DNA of 64,000 nt, taken from contig JAOACB010000008.1 in assembly GCA_026418055.1 (NCBI GenBank), positions 1-64,000 on the forward strand, read 5' to 3'. The stretch's first letter is position 1. Every line of letters begins with the position of its first letter. This DNA is from Fimbriimonadales bacterium. GTDB lineage: Bacteria; Armatimonadota; Fimbriimonadia; Fimbriimonadales; Fimbriimonadaceae. A model generated the notes under the pieces. It was not told the DNA's origin, did no database searches, and saw nothing but the letters and a program-made list of their open reading frames with translations. Below, piece by piece: positions 45,230 to 45,264 of the stretch. Position numbers and translations under genes: made by a program.

Positions 45230-45264
45230 TAGAATGCGTTGGTATTGAGTGCCATGGACTCAAA
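45230..45264 (+). promoter_or_regulatory. dnaK promoter with HAIR operator (HspR site)
   Basis: TAGAAT (45230-45235) is a -10 element. Immediately downstream, 45244-45264 reads ATTGAGT-N7-ACTCAAA, an inverted repeat matching the HAIR consensus (CTTGAGT-N7-ACTCAAG) bound by the repressor HspR. The site sits at the predicted transcription start. A second CATAAT is at 45281-45286. Confidence 0.85.

Follow-up and report, generated by a model that had tools for sequence, protein, structure and literature searches.

A predicted HspR operator at the transcription start of a solitary dnaK gene in Fimbriimonadaceae

The dnaK gene of a genome from Fimbriimonadaceae, a family of the little-studied phylum Armatimonadota, is, with high confidence, preceded by an operator of the HspR heat-shock regulon, ATTGAGTGCCATGGACTCAAA, which we read directly at positions 45244–45264 of the window (the whole 64 kb stretch of DNA analysed here); binding and repression by HspR, feedback by DnaK and transcription largely from an ECF-type promoter in times of stress we infer. 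The features of the region, in order along the DNA, are:

45215..45219, + strand: GGAAC, −35 of a predicted ECF-type promoter (GGAAC-N17-CGTT motif, shuffles, C. glutamicum consensus)
45230..45235, + strand: TAGAAT, A/T-rich −10, predicted to be of sigma-A type, with no clear −35 (position, GTAnnnT counts)
45237..45240, + strand: CGTT, −10 of the predicted ECF-type promoter (motif, relatives, shuffles)
45245..45263, + strand (21-mer 45244–45264): HAIR operator TTGAGT-N7-ACTCAA, predicted to bind HspR, on the transcription start or immediately past it (motif, conservation, shuffles)
45251..45258, + strand: left arm of an inverted repeat in the leader, GCCATGGA...TCCATGGC, which shares bases with the HAIR (8-bp perfect stem)
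45265..45270, + strand: degenerate remnant of a third half-site (consensus gTnnnTTGA), of which just the two T that never vary in the family, 45265 and 45270, survive
45274..45281, + strand: right arm of the leader inverted repeat, pairing with 45251..45258
45310..45314, + strand: AGGAG, predicted dnaK ribosome-binding site (sequence)
45321..47219, + strand: dnaK, 632 aa, ATG at 45321, alone in its transcription unit (PRK00290 and TIGR02350 above cut-offs)

The published minimal HspR operator is TTGAGY-N7-ACTCAA (PMC2687793), with which 45245–45263 agrees at 12 of 12 core positions and in the N7 spacing, and relative to CTTGAGT...ACTCAAG the 21-mer deviates at its two outermost bases only. This bears out an earlier note on this DNA, which had read ATTGAGT-N7-ACTCAAA as fitting the HAIR consensus in core and spacing, and had placed it behind the dnaK −10 at the predicted start; the core indeed begins 9 nt past TAGAAT and 4 nt past CGTT, a layout that relatives share, and the operator thus lies in the core promoter of a chaperone gene, as expected of a member of the HspR/HAIR regulon. 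Searching the whole 2.89 Mb assembly for exact TTGAGT-N7-ACTCAA returned the copy at 45245–45263 alone, while the one-mismatch and the degenerate search each added one place, the dnaJ-hspR promoter, which is the one further HAIR site to come out of the genome search that the note had proposed. Matches with up to three mismatches are near chance level in the window (3 found, 1.1 expected), so a match counts by how few mismatches it has and by where it lies.

The dnaK operators of the family (f1, which we read as Fimbriimonadaceae) were compared in 36 loci in which dnaK stands alone (L067–L100, L102 and L113) plus the window, the closest DnaK being that of L067 (95% identical) and the named relatives being Fimbriimonadaceae or Armatimonadetes MAGs. 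A HAIR lies 36–85 nt upstream of dnaK in all 36 related loci, and it has been kept while the remaining upstream region diverged. In a set of 38 upstream regions, which additionally holds L101, at most one mismatch to the HAIR was found in 17 (0.02 expected from shuffled 150-nt upstream regions), at most two in 32 (0.2 expected) and at most three in all 38 (2.3 expected). When the family operators are aligned on the HAIR, T+1, A+3, C+14, T+15 and A+17 are invariant. One of the loci, L070 (JADZEW010000025.1), has a Fimbriimonadaceae-type dnaK with HAIR, 77% identical, under the title Methanoregulaceae archaeon, for which mislabelling or mis-binning of the MAG is the most likely reason.

In a rival reading the inverted repeat serves mainly in the RNA: the leader hairpin GCCATGGA...TCCATGGC, whose left arm overlaps the HAIR, would stabilise the mRNA or act as a thermometer, with the resemblance to HAIR secondary. 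The stem (8–9 bp, within 45251–45281) has a compensatory change in L067, and 7-bp stems in the same register occur in L076 and L077. However, the stem is present in few of the 37 relatives and is not family-wide, whereas the HAIR is found in all of them, and HAIRs also occur outside leaders, as in the outgroup operons, where they sit on the −35 box. Moreover, the dnaK leader folds no better than shuffled sequence (z −0.4), has no Rfam match at E ≤ 1 and contains no stable fold over the ribosome-binding site, which lies outside the stem. We therefore rejected an RNA thermometer or leader riboregulator and consider a primarily RNA-level role very improbable; the hairpin could still add some post-transcriptional control of dnaK.

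Reading 45244–45264 as an HspR operator calls for an HspR, and the earlier note had named a genome without a homologue as what would refute it. Such a homologue is present: hspR encodes 134 aa on contig C55 (15505–15906, minus strand), directly downstream of dnaJ, and its product scores 113.4 bits against the NCBIfam equivalog model NF047375 HeatShock_HspR (cut-off 105). Its identity with other Armatimonadota HspRs is 51–57%, and with those of outgroup records (Acidimicrobiia, Thermoanaerobaculum and Candidatus Acidiferrales) 39–47%, and the TLR recognition region is conserved in the alignment. Upstream of dnaJ-hspR, over its −10, lies the HAIR of that operon, TTGAGTGTTGTATACTCAT. Of 61 near relatives, 58 have an HspR, as do 145 of the 151 Armatimonadota genomes sampled; it is near-universal in the phylum and so not exceptional in this genome.

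Two other regulators were weighed as users of the site, HrcA acting on a diverged CIRCE and a second MerR protein, since an hrcA gene is present (G000:C62:9-485; L224 3-806) and a second small MerR-family protein of 92 aa is encoded on C77 (L003 888-1166), with HspR as its best match. Their claim is weaker still than that of the RNA. The dnaK site has the spacing and sequence of a HAIR and not of a CIRCE, for which (TTAGCACTC-N9-GAGTGCTAA, up to three mismatches) the window's genome has no match, and HrcA/CIRCE was rejected as the regulator of dnaK; the C77 protein was rejected as an HspR at 45.6 bits against the cut-off of 105, no HAIR occurs within its 2.6-kb contig-edge locus, and it is the hspR operon itself that carries one. 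Among 61 relatives, 56 have an hrcA gene, and in G033 it adjoins neither dnaK nor dnaJ. A functionless chance repeat is the least credible reading, for although HAIR matches with up to three mismatches arise about once per window by chance, the exact core, the right position, the presence of hspR and above all the conservation in every relative refute it.

The HspR operator recurs at other chaperone genes of the family: a HAIR lies upstream of dnaJ-hspR in 27 of 30 relatives and upstream of clpB in 23 of 29, the clpB promoter being unrecoverable in G001 and in the window's genome, whose clpB lacks its 5′ end (contig C93 begins inside the gene). A tblastn search of the 64 kb window found no dnaJ, hsp20 or hspR, in line with the earlier note, which had described dnaK as lacking dnaJ and hspR as neighbours, and at each locus of the family dnaK is on its own, with dnaJ-hspR forming a separate unit. 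In other Armatimonadota, among them four further families of this order, dnaK shares a cluster with dnaJ and hspR, frequently with an intervening hsp20, at all 26 loci where both could be read, and similar dnaK-dnaJ-hspR clusters are found in Acidobacteria and Acidimicrobiia records. A single operon in the other Armatimonadota and a split one throughout the window's family indicate that the lone dnaK is a derived family trait, with HspR supplied in trans. The dnaK-(hsp20)-dnaJ-hspR operons share their genes and the HAIR core with the window's family, and a HAIR precedes dnaK in 26 of 26. However, there it overlaps the −35, its left half forming TTGACA or TTGATA ahead of a TATAAT-like −10, whereas in the window's family the operator sits at the start site; the strict sigma-A pattern is matched by 16 of the 26 operons (0.2 expected) and by 0 of 37 family promoters. 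Separately, in family f2 (L026 and L028–L032, at 1501, or 1061 in L032) an exact HAIR precedes a separate hsp20 and sits directly 3′ of a GGAACTTT...CGTA element.

Conservation at the family dnaK operators extends beyond the HAIR into a tail, gTnnnTTGA, that is, a third half-site. T+20 and T+25 are each found in 37 of 37 operators and +24 is T in 32. At clpB the tail is inverted, with T+20 in 22 of 23 and T+25 in 20 of 23 when read upstream of the HAIR (11 and 2 of 23 downstream), and because it is inverted there we regard it as part of the operator rather than of the promoter or ribosome site; an artefact of promoter or ribosome-site conservation was rejected on the same ground. At dnaJ-hspR most species have TTGAG at +23, one base closer, which is why a PWM trained on the dnaK tails scores the dnaJ-hspR tails poorly. 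Near +25, a second HAIR-like repeat is present in L086 and L090. The extra half-site likely takes up a second HspR dimer in tandem.

The promoter into which the operator is set also appears to be shared. Strict GGAAC-N17-CGTT occurs in 13 of 37 family dnaK promoters (0.01 in shuffles) and the relaxed form G[GA]AAC-N17-[CGT]GT[TCA] in 23 of 37 (0.24 in shuffles), and the same ECF-like motif in its relaxed form is found in 18 of 30 dnaJ-hspR promoters (0.18 in shuffles) and 9 of 13 clpB promoters (0.11 in shuffles). The window itself conforms to GGAAC-N17-18-cGTT, with GGAAC at 45215 and CGTT at 45237, and this shared motif suggests that, besides being repressed by HspR, these genes are activated by an ECF sigma factor. 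A GTAnnnT-type element is present in 33 of 38 dnaK upstream regions (6.9 in shuffles), and as the A/T-rich −10 overlaps GGAAC-N17-CGTT, dnaK likely has two overlapping promoters, one of ECF type and one with a sigma-A-type −10.

The window's genome has about 20 ECF sigma genes over cut-off, and in one of them (L236/L187) a GGAAC-N17-CGTT-type motif lies 38 nt ahead of the start codon ATG. An exact HAIR (L016 1501-1519; G020:C10:3836-3854) stands upstream of an ECF sigma gene in G020 that also has its own GGAAC-N17-CGTT. Compared with the window's genome, the product of this gene matches L185 and L187 best, each at about 40%, with the motif upstream of L187 only; as the two match equally, we dropped the assignment of one ECF sigma factor. 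An HspR–ECF circuit is plausible on these motifs.

In the mechanism that we propose, an HspR dimer, encoded in trans downstream of dnaJ, would occupy the dnaK HAIR in unstressed cells and block RNA polymerase, stopping initiation on the start site or immediately beyond it. DnaK was reportedly described as a corepressor in S. coelicolor by Bucca in 2000, and by analogy to Streptomyces heat or protein damage would produce unfolded proteins that draw off free DnaK, the corepressor, so that HspR is released and dnaK and dnaJ-hspR (in relatives also clpB) are switched on. Stress transcription would come largely from the ECF-type promoter GGAAC-N17-CGTT, which overlaps the weak sigma-A-type −10, until newly made DnaK restores repression. 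In Corynebacterium glutamicum, dnaK is a target of HspR.

The Streptomyces coelicolor regulon (dnaK operon, clpB, lon) resembles this arrangement in its TTGAGY-N7-ACTCAA operator and MerR-type HspR, in having dnaK and clpB as targets (clpB here from relatives) and in the self-regulation of the hspR operon (PMC2687793; PMC6102357). In contrast, the window's dnaK lies outside the hspR operon, hspR being behind dnaJ on another contig, and where the S. coelicolor dnaK operon has three HAIR copies the window's family has one HAIR and an adjacent half-site. The family motif is the consensus of the sigma-H/sigma-E promoters of C. glutamicum, among which that of dnaK has GGAACA-N16-CGTT, which equals GGAAC-N17-CGTT, the motif and spacing seen in the window (PMC10012870); in Fimbriimonadaceae, by contrast, the best candidate sigma factor, L236/L187, scores below the SigE and SigH cut-offs. 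In Helicobacter pylori, HspR recognises a central HAIR plus flanking determinants, described as unknown, with cooperative extra dimers proposed (PMC6102357). A central HAIR with flanking elements is common to both, but the window's family has its conserved half-site on one flank and, in L086 and L090, the second HAIR-like repeat.

Taken further, an ancestral HspR-controlled dnaK operon may have broken up in Fimbriimonadaceae, its daughters each gaining an ECF promoter and a HAIR whose adjacent half-site accommodates a second, tandem HspR dimer, and in some species (G020) the ECF gene itself would have come under HspR, giving one repressor–sigma circuit outside Actinobacteria; we put this forward tentatively, as a history whose chances fall a little short of even. 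The switch itself is well supported, though it is the known HspR/HAIR one and mostly expected; what adds moderately to it is the family-specific layout, namely the split operon, the start-site operator, the extra half-site and the ECF-like promoter.

Our literature search found no description of HspR/HAIR in Armatimonadota and one incidental co-mention. The present data carry a heat-shock switch that is well characterised elsewhere into an entire phylum, as judged from the genomes sampled, and offer a natural record of a repressor keeping its targets through the break-up of an operon, the operator arising anew at every new promoter. For the flanking determinants of H. pylori, finally, the conserved extra half-site is a specific candidate in terms of sequence.
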